The position numbers and the translations under genes are program-made. From NCBI GenBank assembly GCA_947166625.1, contig CAMVEX010000001.1, forward strand, positions 62,001-126,000: DNA of 64,000 nucleotides. Direction: 5' to 3'. How positions within the stretch are numbered: position 1 is the first letter of the stretch; each line of letters starts with the position of its first letter. Below the pieces are notes generated by a model. The model had not been told where the DNA came from. It made no database searches and was given only the letters and a program-made list of their open reading frames with translations. This DNA is from an uncultured Clostridia bacterium (GTDB taxonomy: Bacteria > Bacillota > Clostridia > Oscillospirales > Acutalibacteraceae). This document shows, in pieces, positions 27,466-44,625 of this stretch.

Positions 27466-30400
27466 ATGAGAGTTGTTAAAGTATTTTTCCTAATTGTGTT
27501 ATGTTTGATTTTTGTATTTCAGTCAATTTCTCCCATAGCAAAGGCATATGGGAGCAGAAAAGTTTCACTTGAACCTGCTCATAAAAGTGCGCTAAAAGGA
27601 GAGCCTTTAGTAGGTGGTAATGGTGGCTACAGCGGAGCGGATGATGTTACTATTGAAAACAATAAAGTTAAACTTAATGATCCGATAGTAGGAGAAAAAG
27701 TTGAACTGCGTTCTGCCTACACAAAGCATTTCCAACATAGAGACGGAACATATACAGCGGTTCTGTATCCATTTCCGGTTCATTACCTTGCTTCAACGGG
27801 AAAATGGGAAGAATATGATAACAGTTTAGTCCTCAACAACGAAAGAATCGACTCTAAAGGTCAGGCAACATATACGCCGACATCAACGCCTTTAGATATA
27901 AGGTTGCCGCAAAATATAATTGACAATACTATAGTTATCGGGAAAAACGGTTATACATTAACCATTGGGGTGAATTCAAATAATAAAACAATCAATCCCA
28001 AAGCCAAATCCGTTATTGTCAAAAATTCGGAATTGCAAGCCCGTGAAAAAATCAGATCATCTGATGTGTATAATCTTTCTGACAAAGAAATAAAAAACTA
28101 TAATACAGAAATTATCAAAGTGGATGAGAAAAACTCGTCTGCTAAATATGAAGAAGTGTTTGATAATGCTGATTTAACAATTGATATCACTTCCGCCGTT
28201 GTAAAAGAAACCATTGAAATAAAAGAAAAGTCAAATATACCTTCTTATTCTTTTGATGTTGGATTAAATGGTTTAATACAGAAAAAGCAAAATAACGGAT
28301 CAATAGCACTGTATGATAACAGTAAAAGTGAATATCCGATTTTCGTTATCAACGCGCCGTATATGCTTGATTCATCAGGAGAAGAATGCCATAATATCGA
28401 GATGTATTTTGAGAACAATTCTCTGACGATTACTCCGGATAGTGAGTGGCTCAATGAAAGCAACAGACAATTTCCCGTTTACTTAATACCCTCTATCTCG
28501 GTTTCGCCATCATCTGTTTCAGATGCCTATGTATCTCGCTTGTCTCCAAACACAAACTACGGAGATAACGAATATCTCAATGTTGGTAAAACAATCCTTA
28601 CCCGGACTCGATCATATTTGAAATTTTCGCTTCCGGAGTTGCCGGAAGGAAGTGTGATCTACAATGCAACTTTAGGCATAACTCAAAACAATATACTATA
28701 TGGAAACACTTCAAAATGGATTTACGCTTTTGATCTGTCTCGAGTTTCTACATGGAACAGCGACTCAATCACATGGAACAATCAGCCTGTTTCAACTGAC
28801 GAAGACGGTCCCCAAAACGATGGGATTCAACAGATAGATTATCAATATTATCTGACCGGCAGCGGAAATAAAGATTATATATTTGACATAACCAAATCGG
28901 TAAGGAATTGGTATGAGGGACGCAACAATAACGGCTTTCTCTTAACCAGTAACGACGAATCAGCAAATTGCAGTTCAAGGTTTTTCTCATCAGACAATTC
29001 ATCTGGAAATCGCCCGGTTATTACCGTGTCATACAGTAATAACATAGGTTATGAGAATTATTGGGAATATGAGACTGTTGAAAACTCTGATGATTATGAA
29101 ATTCCGTTTGTGAATCTGCACAATGGGAGTTTAACGTACATAAAGAATGATATCAGTATGACCGGCAATTTAATGCCCATTCAAATCAGTCATGTCTATA
29201 ATTCAAATGCTGCAGAAATATATTCAGAAGTGTATAGTGATATGAATGTTGGCTTGCGTTTTCATCTTAACATTCAAGAGGCACTTATTCCTATTTCACA
29301 AAACAGTGATTTGTACGGATCCGGGTATAGGTATAAATACTTTGATTCTGACGGAACTCTTCACTACTATATTCAATCAGGTAATGAAATTATAGACAGT
29401 TTTGATCCCTCAAACAAAATAATTGCAGGCGGTAATGTATTGTATCGGGAAGACGCTGCCGGAAATAAAAAATATTTTGACAATAACCATAAATTATACA
29501 GGATAGAAGACAAAAACGGCAATGCACAGATTATTTCATATTCAGGATCAAAAATAACTCAGGTTACTGATCCGGTAGGAAGAAAAGCTGTCTTTTCATA
29601 TGACAATAACAATAACCTTATAAGTATTACAGACAATGTTGACAGAATAATCGGTTTTGTTTATACTGAAGATAATAACAATACTCTATTAACGGAAATG
29701 TCTTTCCCCGGTAACAGAGATATTTTACTTGATTATTCTGATTACAGCAGTAAAAACAGACTTACAAAAATAGATCATCAGGATTACAGACCTTTTTTAA
29801 TTTCATACAACAACAAAAAAATAAACCGAGTATACTCCATATCCAAGAGGTATTCTTACAGATATTTTTATTACAGCCAAAGTGACGAAACCGGATTCTC
29901 TTCGGGAAACACATCAATGACTATGTCAAGCAGTATAAATGCCCAATTCAACTTTAGCTTTGATAGATTAGGCCACGCTCTGACCAAAACAAACGGTAAC
30001 GGTCAAACAGAATATTTGAATTATTGTGCCGAAAACAACTACTATAAGCTCAATAAATTGGAAAACAAGTCTGAGCTTCAAGCTATTTCCCAAAACATGC
30101 TGAAAAATCATGGGTTTGAAGGTAGCGGATACTGGACTTCATTACAGTGTATTAACGGTAGCTATGAAATTACTGATGAAATGCATTCTGTAGGAAGAAA
30201 ATCCTTAAAGTTGATTGCAACAGGTGAAAATTCCATAATAGAAATAGATCAGGATTTAGGCACAATTCCTCAAATTAATGCCGGCGTTTTTTCAATTTCA
30301 CTTGATGTGTTTTTTAAGCCGTCTGCTCCGATAACTGAAGATGAGCGCGGCATTGCGTTCGGTGCTACATATATGTATAATAACTCGACATGGCAGCCAA

Positions 30401-33400
30401 AAAGAAGTGAATGGATAAATGGAACCAACGGCTGGGAAAGATTCAGCTTATCGGGAGTCCAAATTACAGGTGCCTATTCAAATGCTCACTTTTTCATTGA
30501 ATTTGCCAATTGTAACATCGGTGATATTGCATATATTGACAACATTCAGATAGAAATGGGAGACGGCCCGGGATGTTATAACCTCGTTGAAAACAGTGAT
30601 TTTTCATATGAGACAAATGCTCCTTCAATCGGGTCAACTTCAGACGGATTATCTGCATCAAAATGGAGCGGAATAAACCTTCAATCAGCTGACGGTATAA
30701 GAACTAACGGAACACGCAATTGCTTTGTTATCAACGGTTTACCGGATACGAATAAAGTCTTATATCAAAATATTGAAGTCAATAAAGAAGCCGGTCAAAC
30801 GTTAATTTTCGGAGGTAAAGCGGCTGCATATGCCTCTAATATTGAAAACAACCGATTATTTGAGATACAAGTTACTTTATTCTATGACAACAGTACTGAA
30901 ACAGATACGATCACCTTAAAATATGATCCTTCTATTGACGGAGCGGAGCAATTAAGATCTACTGCCGTAAAATTGACCGCAGATTGTACTTATGCTCAGT
31001 TTAAGTTTATCTATTCTAAACAAATAGGCAAGGCTTATTTCTATGATGCTTTTGCTTACATAAGTAATTACGGAAATCACTTTGAGTATGATAACAGTGG
31101 GGCGTTGATTTCAGTATCAAACGGTTACGATTATATTGAGAATTATTCGTTAGCCTCGGATTCCGTTGATATAGTATCAATTGAGCAGACCACAGGCGGT
31201 AAATCATCCACCATAGAAATTACTTATGATTCAAATCGTAACATCACTGAAATCGAAAACCCCGAAGGGTCAACAATTGGATACTCTTATAATAATTCCG
31301 GGCAGGTCTTGACTCATACCGTTTCAACTTCTACTCAAAATTCTTCAACTGAATCCGTTACGTATATTCAAAACGGTAACTATGTCAAAACATTTACAGA
31401 TGCTGACGGTATTACAACGACATATACTTACGATAACAATGATCAGGCCAAAATCGGTTTGATTGTAGGAATATCAAAAAGTAATGGAGAATCTCAGACT
31501 TTTACCTATGATCCCAACACAGATGAATTGCTCAGTAAAAGTGTTCCCGGGGGAAGCGGTACGATTAATGCCGATGTTAATATAACTTATGCTGACGGAA
31601 AAATCTCCAATATCAATCATAACTCAACTGATTATTCTTTCACATATTCCTATGGAAATCTAAATGAAGCATACATTGGTCAAAACTTGTTGTTCAGAGA
31701 TACTTATAATAATTTCAATCAGTTATTATCACGCTTGTATCCCAATTATCAAACATTTTCTCGCCGTTATAATAGTGATGATTTAAGCCTTTCCGTAGAT
31801 CGATTTGAGACTACGGTATTGCACGGATATAGGTATGGAAAGAACGGAAAAGTATCTTCAGTTATAGAATGGCCGATGGGAATTCCCACTTCCTGCTATA
31901 TCGATTATGCTTTATACGGATTACCGGCTCATGTGATAGGGGAAGACAAGACAAAAGCCTTGTATGAATATGATATGGCAGGCAATTTGTCTCATTACAC
32001 ATTTTCAAAAGATAATAATGTAATTTATGAGGGCAACTATCATCTGAATGATAAAGCTTTGCCCGAGTTAGTGACTGTTGAAGGCGCGGTTACAGCAAAC
32101 ATGCAGTATGTTTATGATCATTGCTGCCGAGTTTTAAGTTCCACATGTGGCCCCATAATTAATGAGTATGCCTACTCTGACAACTCAACAACAGGAGATT
32201 TTGACAAAAAGCCCACCCAATACTCGGTTAAGGATTTTACCGGAAACACACTGATGCAGTATAGTTTACAGTATGATTCATCCAATAATCTTGTTTCTAC
32301 TGCAAGCGGCAGTAATTCGACTTATTACACCTATAATGAGTTAAATCAGCTAACGAGTGAAACCATCGGTAACGATACCTATACATACACTTATGATTCC
32401 GGAGGGAACATTATTAAGGTTTCAAAGGGATATTCTGTTGAACATACTTTTGTTTACGGCAATTCTGATTGGAAAGATCAGCTGACTTCATATGATTCAC
32501 ACAGTATTACCTACAATGCGGGCGGCAATCCTATATCATACAAAGGATACAGGATGAACTGGACAAGATATAACTGTCTTAATGTTTTCAGCGGAAACGG
32601 AACAAATGCTATCTATATGTATAAGGGAAAAAGCACCAGATGTAAAAAGATTCTGAATGGAGTTGATACAGATTATACATACTCCGGCGACTTACTTATG
32701 CGGCAGGTTTCGGGAGATGATGTAATTGATTTCTCCTACGACTTTTTCGGAAATCCTATAGGCTTTAACTATAACGGAAACAGTTATTATTATGTTTATG
32801 ACTGTCTCGGAAACATTGTTAATGTGGTTGAACCAACCGGCAACATAGTAGCAACCTATACTTATGATGCATGGGGAAAAATTCTTTCTTCTTCGGGGAC
32901 GCTTGCCGACATAAACCCGATCAGATATAAAGGATATTACTATGATTCGGAAACAGGTTTCTATTATTTAAAATCAAGGTATTACAATCCTGAATGGCAT
33001 AGATTTCTCAGCCCTGATACAGAAATGATAGCAGGCAACGATCTTTTCCTCGGCTGTAATATGTACAGTTACTGTTACTATAACCCGATAAAATATACAG
33101 ATTCCGAAGGGAAAGCTCCTAATTTAAGGGATACAATGATCAATGCTGCTTGTGAACTGATCCGCATCAGTGATAAAGTCATAGCATTTTCACTTGCTAT
33201 CCCGACAAGCAAGTTTTTTGAGGTAGTTAACGGTGAAATTCTTGAACCTATTAAAGAAAAAATCGGCAATGATTTTGTGAGTAACCCGAATGTTCAATTC
33301 GTATTACCGTTTTTTGAAGCGGGAGCAAAAAAAATTATACCTTTTCTGCTTGGAAATTTAACCGAAACTTTTGACAGGCCGATCGGATTAAGAAATCTTA

Positions 33401-34020
33401 TGCCCGTCTTTATGAACGGTGGGGCTGTATGGGCACAATATTTCTTGGGATTTAAACCAGATGGAAATGGTAATTATGTTAGCCATGATGACGGAACATT
33501 TATGTGGCAGAGTTTGGCAGGATATTCAATGGGATACGATTACTTTTTCAGTTTGGGCGGTCCGATATTCAGACGATTATATGAATTTCAAAATACTGTG
33601 GGCAATAAAACAACATACTATGTAGTCTGGATCTGGAAGGGAGATTACTGGAATCTCGGTGCAGGTGCGGAAATAGGAATCTACAAAACGGATGATTTTT
33701 ATAGTTACAATAGACATTTTTATGAAGTTGATCCAGATTTAAAACTTACTGTTGATATTTTAATAAAATATCATGAATATTTTCAGACACCATATCCAAT
33801 ATATGAAGAAGACGGCAAAGCTGGCTGGTGGATCTGCTTTTTTACACCCCAAATTCAGTTTCCCAAAGTGGATTGGATAGATGTATATTTGAATGTGAAG
33901 TTTAATGATACAAGTCTGTTTGCACCGTTCTATTCTAAGTATTGTTCGTCCGAAACAAATTGGAGCGAAGTAACTATACCTTCAATAAAGAATAATTATC
34001 AGTTTGATATTACGTATTAA
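27466..34020 (+). CDS. Giant secreted RHS-repeat protein with DUF4474-like C-terminus
   Basis: A 2184-residue surface protein with a signal peptide (about 1-28). A DNRLRE-type domain (about 345-525) has the typical YVSRLSPNTNYGDNEYL start. Two carbohydrate-binding-like stretches lie near 880-1010 and 1040-1190. Many YD repeats fill about 620-860 and 1200-1810. The RHS core (about 1819-1882) has RYKGYYYDSETGFYYL and RFLSPDT. The last 300 residues, after the core, resemble DUF4474 and end in FDITY. In other bacteria, variable domains after the RHS core are often toxins, but DUF4474 has no known activity. A GGAGG-type site lies 7 bases before the ATG. Confidence 0.9.
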   Translation: MRVVKVFFLIVLCLIFVFQSISPIAKAYGSRKVSLEPAHKSALKGEPLVGGNGGYSGADDVTIENNKVKLNDPIVGEKVELRSAYTKHFQHRDGTYTAVLYPFPVHYLASTGKWEEYDNSLVLNNERIDSKGQATYTPTSTPLDIRLPQNIIDNTIVIGKNGYTLTIGVNSNNKTINPKAKSVIVKNSELQAREKIRSSDVYNLSDKEIKNYNTEIIKVDEKNSSAKYEEVFDNADLTIDITSAVVKETIEIKEKSNIPSYSFDVGLNGLIQKKQNNGSIALYDNSKSEYPIFVINAPYMLDSSGEECHNIEMYFENNSLTITPDSEWLNESNRQFPVYLIPSISVSPSSVSDAYVSRLSPNTNYGDNEYLNVGKTILTRTRSYLKFSLPELPEGSVIYNATLGITQNNILYGNTSKWIYAFDLSRVSTWNSDSITWNNQPVSTDEDGPQNDGIQQIDYQYYLTGSGNKDYIFDITKSVRNWYEGRNNNGFLLTSNDESANCSSRFFSSDNSSGNRPVITVSYSNNIGYENYWEYETVENSDDYEIPFVNLHNGSLTYIKNDISMTGNLMPIQISHVYNSNAAEIYSEVYSDMNVGLRFHLNIQEALIPISQNSDLYGSGYRYKYFDSDGTLHYYIQSGNEIIDSFDPSNKIIAGGNVLYREDAAGNKKYFDNNHKLYRIEDKNGNAQIISYSGSKITQVTDPVGRKAVFSYDNNNNLISITDNVDRIIGFVYTEDNNNTLLTEMSFPGNRDILLDYSDYSSKNRLTKIDHQDYRPFLISYNNKKINRVYSISKRYSYRYFYYSQSDETGFSSGNTSMTMSSSINAQFNFSFDRLGHALTKTNGNGQTEYLNYCAENNYYKLNKLENKSELQAISQNMLKNHGFEGSGYWTSLQCINGSYEITDEMHSVGRKSLKLIATGENSIIEIDQDLGTIPQINAGVFSISLDVFFKPSAPITEDERGIAFGATYMYNNSTWQPKRSEWINGTNGWERFSLSGVQITGAYSNAHFFIEFANCNIGDIAYIDNIQIEMGDGPGCYNLVENSDFSYETNAPSIGSTSDGLSASKWSGINLQSADGIRTNGTRNCFVINGLPDTNKVLYQNIEVNKEAGQTLIFGGKAAAYASNIENNRLFEIQVTLFYDNSTETDTITLKYDPSIDGAEQLRSTAVKLTADCTYAQFKFIYSKQIGKAYFYDAFAYISNYGNHFEYDNSGALISVSNGYDYIENYSLASDSVDIVSIEQTTGGKSSTIEITYDSNRNITEIENPEGSTIGYSYNNSGQVLTHTVSTSTQNSSTESVTYIQNGNYVKTFTDADGITTTYTYDNNDQAKIGLIVGISKSNGESQTFTYDPNTDELLSKSVPGGSGTINADVNITYADGKISNINHNSTDYSFTYSYGNLNEAYIGQNLLFRDTYNNFNQLLSRLYPNYQTFSRRYNSDDLSLSVDRFETTVLHGYRYGKNGKVSSVIEWPMGIPTSCYIDYALYGLPAHVIGEDKTKALYEYDMAGNLSHYTFSKDNNVIYEGNYHLNDKALPELVTVEGAVTANMQYVYDHCCRVLSSTCGPIINEYAYSDNSTTGDFDKKPTQYSVKDFTGNTLMQYSLQYDSSNNLVSTASGSNSTYYTYNELNQLTSETIGNDTYTYTYDSGGNIIKVSKGYSVEHTFVYGNSDWKDQLTSYDSHSITYNAGGNPISYKGYRMNWTRYNCLNVFSGNGTNAIYMYKGKSTRCKKILNGVDTDYTYSGDLLMRQVSGDDVIDFSYDFFGNPIGFNYNGNSYYYVYDCLGNIVNVVEPTGNIVATYTYDAWGKILSSSGTLADINPIRYKGYYYDSETGFYYLKSRYYNPEWHRFLSPDTEMIAGNDLFLGCNMYSYCYYNPIKYTDSEGKAPNLRDTMINAACELIRISDKVIAFSLAIPTSKFFEVVNGEILEPIKEKIGNDFVSNPNVQFVLPFFEAGAKKIIPFLLGNLTETFDRPIGLRNLMPVFMNGGAVWAQYFLGFKPDGNGNYVSHDDGTFMWQSLAGYSMGYDYFFSLGGPIFRRLYEFQNTVGNKTTYYVVWIWKGDYWNLGAGAEIGIYKTDDFYSYNRHFYEVDPDLKLTVDILIKYHEYFQTPYPIYEEDGKAGWWICFFTPQIQFPKVDWIDVYLNVKFNDTSLFAPFYSKYCSSETNWSEVTIPSIKNNYQFDITY

Positions 34021-34035
34021 AAGGAGGACAAAGTA

Positions 34036-34818
34036 ATGGGAATATTTCTGAAAGTATGGGCTTTAATACTGGGTATGATAATGGCTTTCTTTTCTGTGAA
34101 GACTCCTGTAAAAGCTTACGAGCCGGAAACGGTTGTTATCAATGGTGTTACTTACAAGAATTGTTTTCTCCCGGAGTATGCAGGGCTTAATACCACAAAT
34201 GATGATGGTAGCAAGAAAAGGTATTTTGATATCAACGATCCTTTTTATATAGACGAGTCAGGATTATTCAGATCAAAAACAAAATGGTATAATATAAATG
34301 AAAAAATTATTATTTGTGGGAGTGATGAGTATCCTTCCTTTGGCGCTCCGGGAACGATTTATTACTGCCGGGAATCCGATTGGAATGATCTCAAAGCATA
34401 TTACGGCAACATGGATAATTGGACTTGTTATATCGGAGATATTTATCATACGGAAGACTCGAAACATATTGAAATAGAAGAAGAATACTTTAACGCAGAT
34501 TTATGGAAAAGAATAATGCAGTTTAATTACGATTGCGATGAAACCGACTTATATAAATCTGTAGAATTACCTATTAACCGGAATGATATAAAGGACTATA
34601 CTTTTGTGCATTTAAATCTCTATATGAAAAGCTCTGATGAAGTGTTTTATGCTAATGTAAGAAATGTATTAGAGTATAAAGGAGATATATATATTCAAAA
34701 AGTCTATTATGAAGGATTATATGTGAAGGCATACAAATTTCCCAGTGAACTTCAAGAGTATATTTTAAAACTTACGAAACAATATGACAGTGCTGTTCAC
34801 TTTGTTGAGCAAATCTAA
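34036..34818 (+). CDS. Secreted protein, paralogue of the lipoprotein at 35164
   Basis: The protein has 260 residues and a signal peptide ending near VKA (26). The mature protein starts with a motif shared with the gene at 35164: NGVTYKNCFLP here and DGTKYRNGFLP there. It also shares the YCRESDW block near 115 and a C-terminal FPSELQEY. No catalytic site is seen. It starts 15 bases after the RHS gene with a GGAGG site, so it is made with the RHS protein and may be its partner or its immunity protein. Export argues for a role outside the cell. Confidence 0.82.
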   Translation: MGIFLKVWALILGMIMAFFSVKTPVKAYEPETVVINGVTYKNCFLPEYAGLNTTNDDGSKKRYFDINDPFYIDESGLFRSKTKWYNINEKIIICGSDEYPSFGAPGTIYYCRESDWNDLKAYYGNMDNWTCYIGDIYHTEDSKHIEIEEEYFNADLWKRIMQFNYDCDETDLYKSVELPINRNDIKDYTFVHLNLYMKSSDEVFYANVRNVLEYKGDIYIQKVYYEGLYVKAYKFPSELQEYILKLTKQYDSAVHFVEQI

Positions 34819-34889
34819 CGAAGCAACAGAAGGATAATCAAATTGGCGGTTAATTAAAAAAGCTAGAATGGCAACAGGGAGGTGTTATT

Positions 34890-35123
34890 ATGCCAGGCGC
34901 CGGATTGTTTACAATGTCTGTATTAACAATAATTTACACCTATTTTCCGGGGCTTATAGGTCCGTTGTTCAATGCAATGGGTGCTGATATGGATATGAAT
35001 ATGGCTATGGAATTTCGTGAAATGGCTTTTGAATTCTTAAAAATTGCAGGACCTGTCGCTTTGAAAGATTTTCTCATTCCTGTAATAATCGAAATAGCAA
35101 AGAACCATATCCCTTGGATTTGA
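34890..35123 (+). CDS. Small hydrophobic protein, function unknown
   Basis: The protein has 77 residues with two hydrophobic helices (about 3-30 and 48-73) around a Met/Asp-rich middle (DMDMNMAMEF). It has a strong AGGGAGGTG site 8 bases before the ATG, so it is probably expressed. No family recognised. Its place between the two related exported proteins of the RHS module suggests a membrane helper or a small toxin/holin-like peptide; the sequence does not decide. Confidence 0.6.
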   Translation: MPGAGLFTMSVLTIIYTYFPGLIGPLFNAMGADMDMNMAMEFREMAFEFLKIAGPVALKDFLIPVIIEIAKNHIPWI

Positions 35124-35163
35124 TAAATCTATGTGGAAAAGTAATAAGGTTATCGGAGATACT

Positions 35164-35991
35164 ATGAAAAGAATAATCGGTTTAGCATTACCTCTGATGA
35201 TAGTATTGTCGGCCGTTTCGTGTTCTGTCGGCTCTCCAAATGCTCCGTTTAATCAGGAAGCATCTTTATCCGAATCGACAATTATTTCTTCTGAAAAAGG
35301 AGAAGAGATAAATCGCGAATCGGATCCATCTTACGGCGGAGAAGAAACATCAACTTTGAACGGAGAAGAATCCTCTTCAATCGAAATTGAGGTTGATGGC
35401 ACTAAATACAGAAATGGATTCCTGCCGGGTTTATCATTAACCTATGATGAGGGAAACACGCAGCTTGTTCAAAGCGAAGCTTTAGGTGAATGTTATTTGG
35501 TTAAACAAGGCAATAAGCAGTTTTTGGTATGTAACAGTAATGACGGCAAAACTTCCGCTGAGAATGTTTATTGTAAATCAAGCGATTGGAAATCGTACAG
35601 GTCCTTTTATTCAAGCGCTGAAAATTATGACATAACGGTTTCAAAAATCACAAACGGCAAAGAGAAAATCACCGATATCAAGGATGTCAATCTGATTAAG
35701 CTCATTGATTTAATATCATTTTGCGACAGGAATCGTTATGACGATTTTTCCTCAACTGTACCGAAAGCAGCTTATGCTGTAGCATATAAGCTCGCCGACT
35801 CTCCGAAATATCGAATTTCAATAAATTCAAAAGACGGTTTGGTTTTGGGAAAGTCCTCCGATTTAATGATAATCAGCGAAAAGATTTCTTTGATTTACCA
35901 CATAATAATGAGTGAAAACAAGGCTTTGATTATTGACATACCATCCGATCTGAACAAATACTTTATGAATGTATTAAAAAACGAAACATAA
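35164..35991 (+). CDS. Lipoprotein, paralogue of the secreted protein at 34036
   Basis: A 275-residue lipoprotein with lipobox VSCS (Cys20), followed by a Ser/Glu-rich linker to about 75. The folded part starts with VDGTKYRNGFLP and has YCKSSDW and IPSDLNKY, aligned in order with blocks of the gene at 34036. The reading frame opens 33 bases earlier, but only the ATG at 35164 has a GGAG site. One copy is freely secreted and this one is anchored, which resembles an effector/partner pair that diverged after duplication. Last gene of the module. Confidence 0.8.
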   Translation: MKRIIGLALPLMIVLSAVSCSVGSPNAPFNQEASLSESTIISSEKGEEINRESDPSYGGEETSTLNGEESSSIEIEVDGTKYRNGFLPGLSLTYDEGNTQLVQSEALGECYLVKQGNKQFLVCNSNDGKTSAENVYCKSSDWKSYRSFYSSAENYDITVSKITNGKEKITDIKDVNLIKLIDLISFCDRNRYDDFSSTVPKAAYAVAYKLADSPKYRISINSKDGLVLGKSSDLMIISEKISLIYHIIMSENKALIIDIPSDLNKYFMNVLKNET

Positions 35992-37442: not shown

Positions 37443-38558
37443 TCAGAGGCATTTCTGATCGTAGCTGAAAAGCACTTCGTTTATCTCAAAAATATCGTAT
37501 ATTTTGTTTTCGATAAAATATCTGATTATCACATCAAAAAGAATGGAATTTGACAGACGGTAGCCCGCCTTGCCGAGCAATTCCTCCGTCTCGGAAATAT
37601 CAAGCTCAAGGGCAATGGCAAAGGCGACCGCCGTTTCTTTTTTGGGTCTGTAATCCGCATTGCATCTGATTTTTGAAAACAGCTTGCGGTCGGAATTTGC
37701 CCTGTAATAACATTCGGAATCGGTCATCCCCTTCTCATCGATCTTTCTCAAAAGCATACGGCTGAAAGATTCGTCGATGACAAATTCGGGCTTTGAGTCC
37801 GAGAAATCACACTGAGCGCTTTCATAAGACTGCCCAAGCAGACGCTCCTCATCCCGCGGCTCAACCGGAAGCGAGCCCGCGGTTTTATCGGAAAACAGCC
37901 TGCGTTTAAGCGGGCGTTTTTTCTTTTTTTCGGTCGGTGCTTTTGCGGCGGGCGCACCCATACAAGGCATAGGTTCGACAGCCGCAGTGTGGAGAAGGTT
38001 TCCCTCGCGCGAGAATCTGCGCTCGGTTTCGCTCACATAGTTTTCATCAATGTAGGATCTGAGTGAGCCGAATTTGCCGCTTCCGATAACAAATGAGCCG
38101 CGGTCAAAAATAACGAGGGTAACATCGATTTCGTTATCTTTGATAAAACGCTTGATCTCATCGCAGGCGACCTCGATCGCTTTATCCTTCGGATAACCGT
38201 AAACACCGGCTGAAATAAGCGGGAAAGCAACGCTTTCGCATCCGTTTTCGGCAGCGAGGCGCAGGGAATTGCGGTAGCAGGAACGAAGCAGAGCTTCCTC
38301 GCCGGAATCGCCGCCGCTCCATACGGGACCGACAGTGTGGATAACGTACTTTGCGGGCAAATTATATCCTTTTGTAATTTTAGCCTCGCCCGTTTTGCAG
38401 CCGCCGAGGGTTTTGCACTCCTCAAGAAGCCCTTTGCCTGCCGCTGCGTGAATGGCGCCGTCAACTCCTCCGCCGCCCAAAAGAGAATTATTCGCGGCGT
38501 TTACTATGGCATCCGCCTTTATCAGGGTAATATCGTTTCTCTCTATTCTGAAAGGCAT
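37443..38558 (-). CDS. Macro-domain protein with C-terminal helical domain
   Basis: The protein has 371 residues. The N-terminal macro domain (about 1-170) has the ADP-ribose binding motifs [18 protein letters not shown] and the loop SAGVYGYPK, so it should bind or remove ADP-ribose. A basic linker with a [10 protein letters not shown] run leads to a helical C-terminal domain (about 255-371) like those joined to macro domains in Clostridia. It has weak helix-turn-helix character, so DNA binding is possible. A GGAGA site precedes the ATG. The pair with the vWA gene downstream is repeated in other Firmicutes as far as I recall, but its job is unknown. Confidence 0.85.
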
Positions 38559-38716: not shown

Positions 38717-39577
38717 TTGAGTAAAAAGCGGCGCCTGATAAGCGCTCTTGTATTCTGTCTGATAATAATCGGGCTGATTGTCGGAATAATCCTGACCTCC
38801 CCTCCTCAAGGCGAGAAAGAACCCGTCAAAGAAGTCATGCGCGACGCGGTTTTACACGAAAGCGGAAAAATCGCGCTGCCGATCGTCGGCGAGGTAAATC
38901 CCGGATTTATTTCCGCAATGGCAGTATCCGCCGTGCTGATGATATTCGCGGCGGCAGTCAGGATCTTTGTAATACCGAAATTCACCATGAGACCGGGGAA
39001 ATTCCAATATCTGCTCGAAAAAGCCGTGGGTCTGTTTACCGGGCTTGCGAAGGAAAACAGCGGCCACAAGCCTGTTTTCATAGGCGGCTATATCTTTGCC
39101 GCAGGCCTGTATATCTTTGCGAGCACGATATTTGAATTATTCGGGGTGCAGGCCGTAACGACAGCGGGAAGGTCGATATCTCTCTCCGCTCCGCTCTCGG
39201 ATATAAACGGGGCGATCGCCATGGGTGTATTCTCATACTCCGTAATACTTCTCGGAGGGCTTGTCACAAACGGGCCTAAGGGCGCAGGCAAGGCGCTAAA
39301 GGATTTTTCGCTCCCAATCTCGATGAGCTTCAGATTATTCGGCGCGTTGCTCTCCGGAGCGCTCGTAACTGAGCTTGTATATTACTTCTCCCTTACAAGC
39401 TATGTGATACCGGTATTGGTCGGAATAATGTTTACCCTGCTTCACGCACTGATACAGGCATACGTTTTGACTATGCTCGTTTCAATTTTTTACGGGGAAT
39501 CAACAGAGCCCCCACACAAAATCAAAAAACAAAAAGACACCGAAAAGAGGTTAAATAATCATGAAAAAGTATCTTAA
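38717..39577 (+). CDS. atpB: ATP synthase subunit a
   Basis: A 286-residue Fo membrane subunit that carries protons to the c ring. The key region PISMSFRLFGALLSGALV holds the essential Arg, and HALIQAYVLTML (near 245-256) is the last helix with the polar channel residues. About six hydrophobic segments. The usual start region is poor in ATG, so the TTG at 38717, with GGAAGGAGA before it, is preferred to the in-frame ATG at 38672 without a site. It overlaps the c subunit by 17 bases. First gene of the operon a-c-b-alpha-gamma-beta-epsilon. Confidence 0.88.
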   Translation: MSKKRRLISALVFCLIIIGLIVGIILTSPPQGEKEPVKEVMRDAVLHESGKIALPIVGEVNPGFISAMAVSAVLMIFAAAVRIFVIPKFTMRPGKFQYLLEKAVGLFTGLAKENSGHKPVFIGGYIFAAGLYIFASTIFELFGVQAVTTAGRSISLSAPLSDINGAIAMGVFSYSVILLGGLVTNGPKGAGKALKDFSLPISMSFRLFGALLSGALVTELVYYFSLTSYVIPVLVGIMFTLLHALIQAYVLTMLVSIFYGESTEPPHKIKKQKDTEKRLNNHEKVS

Positions 39578-39932
39578 AGCAATATTTGCCGTTTTGGCGG
39601 TCATGCTCATAATCACAGCCGTTTCTCTCTCCGCTTTTGCGGCAGAGGGCGAAGAAACGACAGCGGCGGCAACTCAGGAAGCGCAGGAAGCCGCCTCATC
39701 CGACAGCACGACCAAAGCAAAGGCTTACGCCGCCGCGATAATGATAGCCGCAGTGGCTTCGGCAGGCGCAGTGGCGATGGCGATATCCATCAAGAGCGGC
39801 TCAAACAACATCGCACGCCAGCCCGAGGCGGCAGGCAACATAAGGACCAATGTAATGCTCGGTCTTGTTTTTATCGAGACTGCGATAATCTACGCGCTCA
39901 TAGTCGCGATTTTGCTTATATTCGTGCTTTAA
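39561..39932 (+). CDS. atpE: ATP synthase subunit c with N-terminal extension
   Basis: The protein has 123 residues, where the family is usually about 70-90. Residues 51-123 form the c hairpin: the loop ARQPEA (85-90) and the ion-binding Glu106 in FIETAIIY. The first 50 residues are extra: a signal-peptide-like stretch (1-27, ending SAFA) and an acidic Ala/Thr/Ser linker. The GxGxG pattern of helix 1 is largely Ala instead of Gly. No Gln typical of sodium-binding c rings is visible, so protons are the more likely ion. Its start overlaps atpB. A cleaved leader would leave the normal outside N-terminus. Confidence 0.85.
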   Translation: MKKYLKAIFAVLAVMLIITAVSLSAFAAEGEETTAAATQEAQEAASSDSTTKAKAYAAAIMIAAVASAGAVAMAISIKSGSNNIARQPEAAGNIRTNVMLGLVFIETAIIYALIVAILLIFVL

Positions 39933-39947
39933 CCGGAGGATCTTACA

Positions 39948-40424
39948 ATGCCTTTGAATATAGATATTCAGCAGATACTGCTGCATATGCTTAATTTTGC
40001 GATTCTTTTTGCAGCATTGTATTTTTTGCTCTATAAGCCCGTCAAGAAATTCATGGATAACAGAGATAAATACTATGACGAGCTTGACGAAAAATACAAA
40101 TCTTCTCTCTCCGAAGCGGAGAAGGCAAAGGAAGAATATCAGAAGGAACTTGACTCACTGAAGGAAGAAAGCGAACAAATAAAGGTGCAGGCCGCTCAGG
40201 AAGCCCGTGAGCAGGCAAAGATAATCGTTTCCGACGCAAAGAAGCAGGCGGACGAAATCATAGCCAAATCAAAGGCGAGAGCCTCAAAAGAGAAGAAAGC
40301 CATGATAAAATCGGCGAATAATCAGATAAGAGAGATCGCCGAGCAGGCCGCTCAGAAGCTGATACTCGACGGCGAGGACGCTTACGAAACCTTCCTCAAT
40401 TCCTTCGACAGCGAGGAAAACTGA
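39948..40424 (+). CDS. atpF: ATP synthase subunit b
   Basis: A 158-residue peripheral stalk subunit: one membrane helix (about 8-28) followed by a long charged helix to the end. It normally binds the delta subunit with its tip. The next gene starts 2 bases after the stop and begins with a delta-like domain, so the tip probably docks there. Length is normal and there is no delta fused to its C-terminus. Confidence 0.92.
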
Positions 40425-40425
40425 T

Positions 40426-42150
40426 ATGGCCCGAAATAAAACTGCATTCATTTATTCGGACCGTGAGCCGACGGCGGAGCAATTTGAGAGAATTCAGAAT
40501 CTCATTCGCCGCAGATACGGTATAAAAGAATTAAAATTCGTCAAGGACGAAAAAATAACCACGGGATTCAAGCTCGAATTTGACAACAAGCTCTTTGACT
40601 GGACCATAGAAGGAAGACTTCACCAGCTCACGAGCGAATTCGATACTCTTGACTCCTACGATTCAAAGAAGTCGGTTATGCCTCTGATGAGGAAAATGGT
40701 GGCCGGCTTTGAACTGCATGCCGTCAGCGAAGAAATAGGCACGGTCGATTCGGTCAGAGACGGAATCGCTTTCATAAGCGGGCTTGACAGCGCCGAATAC
40801 GATGAGATACTCGTATTTGATTCAGGCGTAAAAGGACTGGTGCAGGATATAAAAGAGAAGCAGATAGGCTGCATCCTCTTTGACAGCGACGAATTTGTTT
40901 CGGCCGGCAGCAAAGCCGTAAGGACCGGGCACATCGCCGGTATGCCCGTAGGCGAGGATTTTCTCGGCAGGGTTATCGATTCGCTCGGGAACCCCATTGA
41001 CGGGCTCGGCGAAATAGACGCGGACGACTATTGGCCGATAGAAAAGCGGGCGCCCGGTATAATAGACCGTCAGCCCGTCAACACCCCTCTTGAAACGGGA
41101 ATACTCTCAATTGATTCGATGTTTCCCATCGGCAGAGGTCAGCGCGAGCTGATAATCGGCGACAGACAGACGGGAAAGACCGCCATCGCGGTGGATACCA
41201 TTCTCAATCAAAAGGGTAAAGACGTTATCTGCATATATGTTTCAATTTGCCAGAAGGCGAGCACCACAGCCGCGCTTGTAAACAAGCTGAAGGAATTCGG
41301 CGCGATGGATTACACGATAATCGTCAACTCCCCTGCCAGCGACGCCGCTCCGCTTGAATTTATGGCACCCTACGCGGGATGTACGCTCGGCGAATACTTT
41401 ATGTCGCAGGGCAAGGATGTGCTTATAGTATATGACGATCTGTCAAAGCACGCCGTAGCATACAGGACAATATCGCTTCTCCTCGGCAGGACTCCCGGAA
41501 GAGAGGCGTATCCCGGAGATATATTCTATCTGCATTCACGCCTGCTTGAGCGCTCGGCTCATCTGAGCGACAGCCTCGGCGGAGGCAGTATGACGGCTCT
41601 CCCCATAGTTGAGACGCAGGAGGGCGATGTTTCCGCATATATTCCGACAAATGTAATATCAATAACCGACGGGCAGATCTTCCTTGAGAGCGAGCTGTTT
41701 TTCAGCGGTCAGAGACCTGCAGTAAATGTCGGCGTTTCAGTTTCGAGAATAGGCGGAGACGCTCAGTCACAAGCAATGAAAAAAGCGACGGGCACTCTGC
41801 GCCTCGACCTCGCTCAATACAGAGAAATGGCGGCGTTTATGCAGTTTGCCGGCGACCTTGACGCCGCATCGAAATCAAAGCTCAATTACGGCAGAGGGCT
41901 TATGAATATTCTCAAACAGAAGCAGTATAATCCCATACCCAGACACAGGCAGGTCATAATTCTCGTTACCGCTCTCGCTCACAGAATTCAGAATATGGAT
42001 GAGCAGCAGGCAAGGCTCTATCTCGACGCGGTTTGCGAAAAGGCAGAGCGCGAGGACGAATATCTCTGCTCCGATATTGACGGCAACGGCAGTTTTTCAC
42101 CCGAGATCAAGCAGAGAATACTTGAGATCGCCGACAGCACGGTGGTATAA
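40426..42150 (+). CDS. atpA: ATP synthase subunit alpha fused to a delta C-terminal-like domain
   Basis: A 574-residue F1 alpha subunit (usual about 505). Residues from about 75 match alpha in full: [13 protein letters not shown]-loop GDRQTGKT, and the Arg finger region near [10 protein letters not shown]. The first 72 residues are extra and look like the C-terminal domain of delta: [11 protein letters not shown] then a segment like [11 protein letters not shown], which corresponds to the GGi..riGD..iDgSv..rL pattern of delta. No separate delta gene is found between b and alpha, where it normally lies. So the delta helical domain is missing and its b-binding part rides on alpha. Confidence 0.88.

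Positions 42151-44625
<2,475 letters not shown>

Follow-up and report, generated by a model that had tools for sequence, protein, structure and literature searches.

F-type ATP synthases are usually taken to have one peripheral stalk, and the N-terminal half of their δ subunit normally sits on the three-fold axis, where it joins the N-termini of the α subunits. Ueno et al. (2025) altered this arrangement by design in FoF1 of Bacillus PS3, removing the N-terminal domain of δ and fusing δ residues 105-178 to α; this engineered δΔN-α enzyme and its control both lack the ε C-terminal domain (PMC12229609). According to excerpts of that paper, the enzyme carries as many as three stalks and three a-subunits (about two of each on average in gels), and its cryo-EM classes comprise one, two and three stalks, the last very rare. 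Its H+/ATP ratio is 5.8 versus 3.0, and its pumping activity is lower than that of the wild type. The authors regard the δ N-terminal domain as what limits the stalks to one, note natural δΔN-α fusions (Acidaminococcus fermentans; UniProt G4Q3K6 and A0A1I2C5T3) and suggest that nature may have raised stalk number likewise (PMC12229609). Other systems without a separate δ are described in excerpts of further papers: δ-less units are reported in Clostridia (PMC5709465), and N-ATPases are said to lack δ and have a longer b (PMC5706428), and elsewhere to have δ absent or fused with b, in the gene order β-ε-X-X-a-c-(b δ)-α-γ (PMC11738941).

We examined a 64,000-nucleotide stretch of DNA from an uncultured Clostridia bacterium, hereafter the window. 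It contains an ATP synthase operon on the forward strand in the order a-c-b-[δ C-terminal domain-α]-γ-β-ε; open reading frames and Pfam matches bear out both this order and the missing δ gene, which an earlier note on this DNA had described. Subunit a is encoded by atpB (38717..39577; PF00119, E 3.2e-15), whose likely start, a TTG after GGAAGGAG, was picked by eye, the mechanical ORF running from 38672. It is followed by atpE for the 123-residue subunit c (39561..39932; PF00137 at residues 57-119, E 2.9e-9) and atpF for the 158-residue subunit b (39948..40424; PF00430, E 9.6e-16), and all three matches lie above the Pfam cut-offs. The fused gene, atpA (40426..42150), is a stop-free ORF with an ATG start that encodes a 574-residue α with the δ C-terminal domain in front. 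Downstream lie atpG for γ (42151..42990; PF00231, E 2.2e-75), atpD for β (42987..44390; TIGR01039, 776 bits) and atpC (44383..44625), an 80-residue ε consisting of the β-sandwich alone. PF02823 at residues 4-79 is the sole Pfam family in atpC up to E 1, and a C-terminal helical domain was not found there. Three subunits pass the F-type equivalog cut-offs, namely α (TIGR00962, 681 vs 484 bits), β (TIGR01039, 776 vs 463) and γ (TIGR01146, 221.8 vs 194.5); a, b, c and ε score below the stricter NCBIfam cut-offs of the models listed. By these three cut-offs and the accompanying a, b and c genes, the predicted product is an F-type ATP synthase.

Scans of the window for tRNAs and Rfam families gave no matches. 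Upstream of the operon, a 2184-residue RHS-repeat protein (27466-34020; PF05593) precedes three ORFs that encode 260, 77 and 286 residues (34036-35991), the 286-residue product having a lipobox-like start by eye. A 371-residue macro-domain protein (PF01661) is encoded on the reverse strand at 37443-38558; beyond residue 131 it has no further Pfam match at E 1e-5.

The extra N-terminus of α had been read in the earlier note as following the δ C-terminal pattern. When residues 1-80 are checked against the δ/OSCP family, as that note had proposed, Pfam OSCP (PF00213) matches at E 8.7e-8, and in the whole protein at E 3.6e-6, both above the curated 22.3 bits. The match covers residues 6-71 (40441..40638) and profile positions 104-171 of 172 (the match starting at about 103-104), which is the C-terminal, stalk-binding half of δ; the motif quoted in the note falls within residues 45-68. 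The δ identity thus stands, and the proposed extent of residues 1-75 is corrected to about 6-71. NCBIfam δ models match the same stretch more weakly (TIGR01145, 24 bits), below their whole-protein cut-offs, as would be expected with only half of δ present. Behind the domain the α subunit is complete, as the note had also said: TIGR00962 spans residues 82-570 with 681 bits, and α proper (40717..42150) comprises the β-barrel, nucleotide-binding and C-terminal domains (PF02874, PF00006 and PF00306). A helix predicted at residues 78-93 (40657..40704), at low confidence with pLDDT below 50 over most of its length, joins the δ domain to the α β-barrel and is presumed, from this prediction and from alignment to PDB chains over the junction, to be the retained N-terminal helix of α. 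AlphaFold, run on the whole chain with a mediocre mean pLDDT of 61, predicts a β-α-β-β-β-α fold for the δ domain; pLDDT is 70 for residues 1-10, 80-84 for residues 11-60 and 63 for residues 61-70, and we used only residues 11-60 of this model. Judged from its sequence, the fusion of a δ C-terminal domain before a complete α in the window is real. A b-δ fusion of the mycobacterial kind was considered for the window and rejected: b has 158 residues, and ATP-synt_B is the sole family above cut-off of 25 listed Pfam families.

A search of the whole genome (2.49 Mb, 97.5% complete, 0.7% contamination) for a separate δ (atpH), the check that the earlier note had called for, returned a single OSCP match up to E 10, the domain within the fused α; neither a second δ nor a separate full-length δ/OSCP subunit was found. 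The genome has one F-type α above cut-off and one subunit b above cut-off, atpF. Because there is one F-type α gene, all three α subunits of an F1 should carry the δ domain, in agreement with the three per F1 that had been predicted. Two weaker α/β-family matches lie side by side on contig C7 (46029-48244), and this pair appears to represent V/A-type A and B subunits, i.e., a V/A-type rotary ATPase. Two pump families, Rnf and complex-I/Ech, were searched in the genome: RnfC is present and the complex-I/Ech 49-kDa subunit was not found, a combination that would fit an anaerobe whose ion-motive force is small.

The closest structural counterpart of the fusion is the engineered chain. In a phmmer search of the PDB, residues 7-516 of the window's α align to residues 6-518 of that chain, 9jc1_I. 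A profile built from 14 natural fusions (A1) also has 9jc1_I as the best of 66 matched PDB chains (positions 7-172 to 4-171, E 4.7e-39), and among the best 60 of these 66 it is the only one that covers the δ part.

Subunit c of the window begins, in translation, with an extension of about 56 residues ahead of the c hairpin that looks like a signal peptide by eye; in the window and its relatives this extension resembles a signal peptide plus an acidic linker. Of 51 c genes from the first set of δΔN-α loci, 44 encode at least 35 residues ahead of the c domain; the same is true of 2 of 62 from loci with a separate δ and of none of 18 from loci with b-δ-α chains. Not all δΔN-α loci have the long extension: in the second set (L200-L218) most c subunits are only 72-102 residues long. 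A glutamine in helix 1 is a mark of Na+-binding c subunits; by eye it is missing from the window's c, so protons are more likely than Na+ as the coupling ion. Nor is the short ε typical, since ε has 125 residues or fewer in 5 of 49 other δΔN-α operons and is full-length in most, and loss of its C-terminal domain is therefore not part of the kind.

Fused α subunits recur well beyond the window. In a sample of 394 genomes from the window's order, 207 match A1 at E 1e-9 or better, and at least 68 of these 207 contain at least 69 unbroken rows of δ part plus α, which our own profiles resolve into 46 δΔN-α, 17 b-δΔN-α and 6 full δ-α chains. A phylum-wide sample of 398 genomes yields 227 matches at E 1e-25 and at least 21 unbroken fusions. 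Two of these (G000, the window's genome, and G167) were already in the order sample; the other 19 comprise 17 confirmed δΔN-α chains, one full δ-α (L217) and one row (L209) that A1 spans but that does not match our own δ profile and was left out of the counts. The fused loci total 96, with 78 in the first locus set and 18 in the second, and divide into 68 δΔN-α, 18 b-δΔN-α and 10 full or nearly full δ-α; these are counts of architectures and not frequencies, as loci were chosen as matches, with 40 more taken mainly as controls, and the separate-δ class among them includes one N-type b (L061) by an error of the sorting rule. Most of the assemblies are drafts, and one fusion (L204) lies in a single-contig genome. 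Named fused relatives of the window are the Clostridia MAG RUI251 (62% identity) and Christensenella sp. UBA4247 (48%). We take the carriers already in the literature, Acidaminococcus fermentans, G4Q3K6 and A0A1I2C5T3, to be Negativicutes. An apparent fusion in an Acidobacteria record (L053) was rejected, its tblastn match having run through the end of a separate δ gene.

Several variants accompany these architectures. In nine loci (L046, L047, L048, L049, L050, L051, L186, L198 and L199) δ is a separate protein of 72-102 residues with the C-terminal domain only; all but one of them fall into a single clade, to which L190, with a fused α, also belongs. Two tandem δ C-terminal domains precede α in L137:3713-5740 (675 residues), and a duplicated δ N-terminal region precedes it in L035:3536-5884 (782 residues). 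At least 13 genomes (G148, G104, G087, G318, G404, G384, G505, G390, G463, G422, G364, G236 and G502) have two F-type operons that differ in build, and one or both of the two lack the δ N-terminal domain; the pair might serve as two gears, though that purpose is a guess.

In 18 loci the fusion extends further, and a single ORF of 735-767 residues (516 in one cut by a contig edge) encodes b, the δ C-terminal domain and α: L037:5404-7611, L038:5401-7611 on the reverse strand, L135, L138, L140, L142, L143, L145-L148, L150-L154, L156 and L158. Where the contig shows it, the operon reads a-c-b-[b'-δ-α]-γ-β-ε, with a short free b of 138-152 residues; ε, seen in 17 of the 18 loci, is short in these (83-121 residues). 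Ten of the N-termini were scanned with Pfam ATP-synt_B, and eight match at E 1e-4 or better, six of them over the cut-off. In a separate scan the family also matches L038 over the cut-off and L037 below it. Our own b profile, partly trained on these loci, matches all 18. In each of the 18, a single hydrophobic helix lies at the N-terminus and is separated from the δ domain by 135-157 residues, compared with a median of 135 residues after the helix in the free b of ordinary operons. Of the 17 genomes in the order sample that have a triple fusion, 14 show one α and one δ each among the matches listed, the exceptions being G148, G236 and G502; some of the one-α genomes are incomplete (G306, 62%; G285, 80%), and a second α could be missed in them. 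Each α there should bring its own membrane-anchored stalk arm, which would make a one-stalk enzyme hard to build, and an F1 with fewer than three anchors seems difficult to obtain.

Trees were computed from the α core with the δ part excluded, using quick searches that left 42-50 branches open. Short α subunits and a few loci from other phyla were removed from the first tree, and further named loci, near-duplicates and mostly canonical rows were removed from the second by the author's choice; L059 is on a long branch and its placement is unsure. The outgroup, L061:4129-4875, comes from an N-type-like operon of an Anaerolineaceae MAG and encodes a 248-residue b with a δ-like C-terminal part. 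In these trees the window forms a group with L052 (Clostridia MAG RUI251) and with L045, from the same genus, at starred support of 98-99, within a δΔN-α clade of 43 rows in the first tree (95, starred) and 38 rows in the second (96, starred). A separate δΔN-α clade of 14 rows from other families has support 87, and the b-δΔN-α chains form one clade (100, starred). The δΔN-α label changes seven times on the α tree, at least four of these forced by starred branches, and the full δ-α label changes eight times, again with at least four forced. Repeated loss of the δ N-terminal domain is the simplest reading of the seven changes, which as counts cannot separate gain from loss. Full fusions (e.g., L033, L034, L131, L040 and L105, with L026 and L030) adjoin both truncated fusions and separate full δ subunits; an order in which fusion came first and the N-terminal half was lost later would fit, the counts themselves giving no direction. 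The tree mixes bacterial families, and both this mixing and the two-operon genomes are signs of transfer and paralogy.

The δ domain is under purifying selection in close pairs: its dN/dS is 0.07-0.32 in ten partly overlapping pairs whose α cores are at least 90% identical. In more distant pairs the value reaches 0.75, and it is mostly higher than that of the α core. The domain also keeps a type-specific consensus.

On these grounds we favor, with confidence somewhat above even, a native δΔN-α F-type ATPase that has two or three stalks and moves more ions per ATP. Among the observations in its favor, A1's best PDB match is the engineered δΔN-α with extra stalks, and the window's ε lacks its C-terminal domain as the ε of that enzyme does. 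The single α and b genes, the repeated changes on the α tree, the purifying selection on the domain, the anchored chains of the b-δΔN-α clade and the presence of RnfC also count toward it. With the N-terminal half of δ gone and the stalk-binding half on the sole F-type α found, each F1 would display three δ domains unless α is processed. As in the engineered twin, each of them could hold its own b2 dimer and a-subunit, and two or three peripheral stalks would then move correspondingly more ions per ATP. Such an enzyme could make ATP at low ion-motive force or, run in reverse, drive a large number of ions per ATP up a small gradient. This would suit an anaerobe whose ion gradient, like the one generated by Rnf, is small, if that is how the organism lives. 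Several observations speak against this reading: the great rarity of the engineered triple-stalk class, whose enzyme averaged about two stalks and pumped less than the wild type; the start codons at the window's junction; the mostly faster change of the domain relative to the α core; the incompleteness of some one-α genomes; and the full-length ε of most other δΔN-α operons. Full or nearly full δ-α chains in 10 loci also count against it, for the axis has no room for three δ N-terminal domains, and a fused chain by itself therefore does not have to imply more than one stalk. The earlier note was right that either one of the three domains is used or the stalk number changes, and the engineered copy, as excerpts of the paper describe it, favors more stalks (PMC12229609).

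The first of these alternatives, in which c-ring crowding or a limited supply of b and a lets a single b2 and a assemble and leaves two δ domains empty, we consider rather unlikely. It accords with the single b gene and single a gene of the operon, as in ordinary enzymes, and with the 10 full or nearly full δ-α loci, which presumably work with one usable N-terminal domain. Yet the engineered twin gains stalks by rearrangement alone, its control sharing the ε truncation (excerpts of PMC12229609). In addition, the stalk-limiting N-terminal domain is absent, a label that needs several changes on the tree, and the b-δΔN-α clade cannot easily leave two stalk arms idle. Canonical stoichiometry could also be kept by two forms of α from one gene, through an internal start or proteolysis, with about one δ-bearing α per F1. 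In the window, in-frame ATG and GTG codons occur at residues 85-92, with Shine-Dalgarno energies of -5.0 kcal/mol for M91 and -6.3 for V92, near those of real starts, and some δ-less α may be made from them. Over the 77 fused ORFs, however, such a start is not conserved, and we rejected it as a general fix of stoichiometry: 18 of the 77 junctions lack any start codon in frame, and the best site in the remaining 59 averages -3.9, nearer to the background of start-like codons in the α body (mean -2.9, its best tenth at -6.3 or lower) than to real starts (-6.2). A supply of two α forms is accordingly improbable as an explanation.

That the δ domain is a tolerated relic without a stalk role, or the fusion a sequencing artefact, seems very improbable. 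The match is weaker than that of an ordinary δ (TIGR01145, 24 bits) and the assemblies are mostly drafts, but the fusion recurs in 96 loci of three types, of which L204 comes from a genome assembled as a single contig; a type-specific consensus is maintained in the domain, with dN/dS well below 1 in close pairs; and the search of the window's genome found no second δ that could hold b. Least credible of all, to the point of being nearly negligible, is a variant of the N-type ATPase. N-ATPases likewise lack a separate δ or carry it on b (excerpts of PMC11738941; L061), but the window's α and β score below the N-type cut-offs (TIGR03324, 584 vs 750.5 bits; TIGR03305, 620 vs 752) and both the gene order and the position of the δ domain differ. 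On gene order and model scores, membership of the window operon in the N-ATPases was rejected.

A further fusion was seen among the relatives. In four genomes that form one clade (100, starred), γ and β share a reading frame of 786-802 residues (L041:912-3302, L108:2275-4683 and L116:2363-4723 on the reverse strand and L122:5787-8147 on the forward strand), which amounts to a rotor-stator fusion; in a similar case, L112, β is split over two frames. Within the linkers of about 35-47 residues lies a start codon whose Shine-Dalgarno match is good (-5.6 to -8.8), so free β is probably also made. An artificial cross-link between the γ C-terminus and the bearing still allowed rotation, according to an excerpt of PMC3536650.

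Our broader proposal, which we hold to be about as probable as its negation, is that three-stalk rotary ATP synthases are natural, widespread and repeatedly evolved, arising by δ-α fusion with the N-terminal domain shed. Three stalks would be obligatory in one clade, where the b-δΔN-α chain would tie every α covalently to the membrane; ions per ATP would be multiplied by the number of a-subunits without enlargement of the c-ring, and the γ-β relatives would have to rotate around a tether lying on the axis. If this is true, both c-ring size and stalk number can change the ions-per-ATP "gear" of the enzyme, a matter of relevance to organisms that live at low ion-motive force. The window and its many relatives make the suggestion of natural multi-stalk enzymes directly testable, and the b-δΔN-α chains, with little room for a one-stalk enzyme, offer the cleanest test.

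With respect to known systems, the δΔN-α layout itself is already in print and the window is a natural member of it; the earlier note knew of no described δ-α fusion, and natural cases are mentioned in excerpts of PMC12229609. The extent of the spread and the b-δΔN-α chains are new as far as the open literature goes: among open PubMed Central papers, judged by titles, the start of abstracts and excerpts, our searches listed no description of b-δΔN-α chains or of natural γ-β fusions. Compared with the N-type ATPase (excerpts of PMC11738941), the window shares the absence of a separate δ and the possibility that a δ-like domain sits on another subunit, but there the domain is on b and not on α, and gene order and subunit families differ. 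The b-δ subunit of Mycobacterium and Gordonia (excerpts of PMC5709465) is of a shared type, a stalk subunit in one chain with δ and a separate b alongside; α is a separate gene there, whereas the b-δΔN-α chains combine both fusions. Acidaminococcus fermentans, G4Q3K6 and A0A1I2C5T3 share with the window a δ without its N-terminal domain on α, by the description in excerpts of PMC12229609. Closest is the engineered PS3 enzyme (excerpts of PMC12229609; 9jc1), which has in common with the window a δ C-terminal domain before α, no δ N-terminal domain, no separate δ, no ε C-terminal domain and collinearity within about two residues over the junction. It differs in being designed and from another species, and its stalks have been counted, whereas the window enzyme is known from its sequence.
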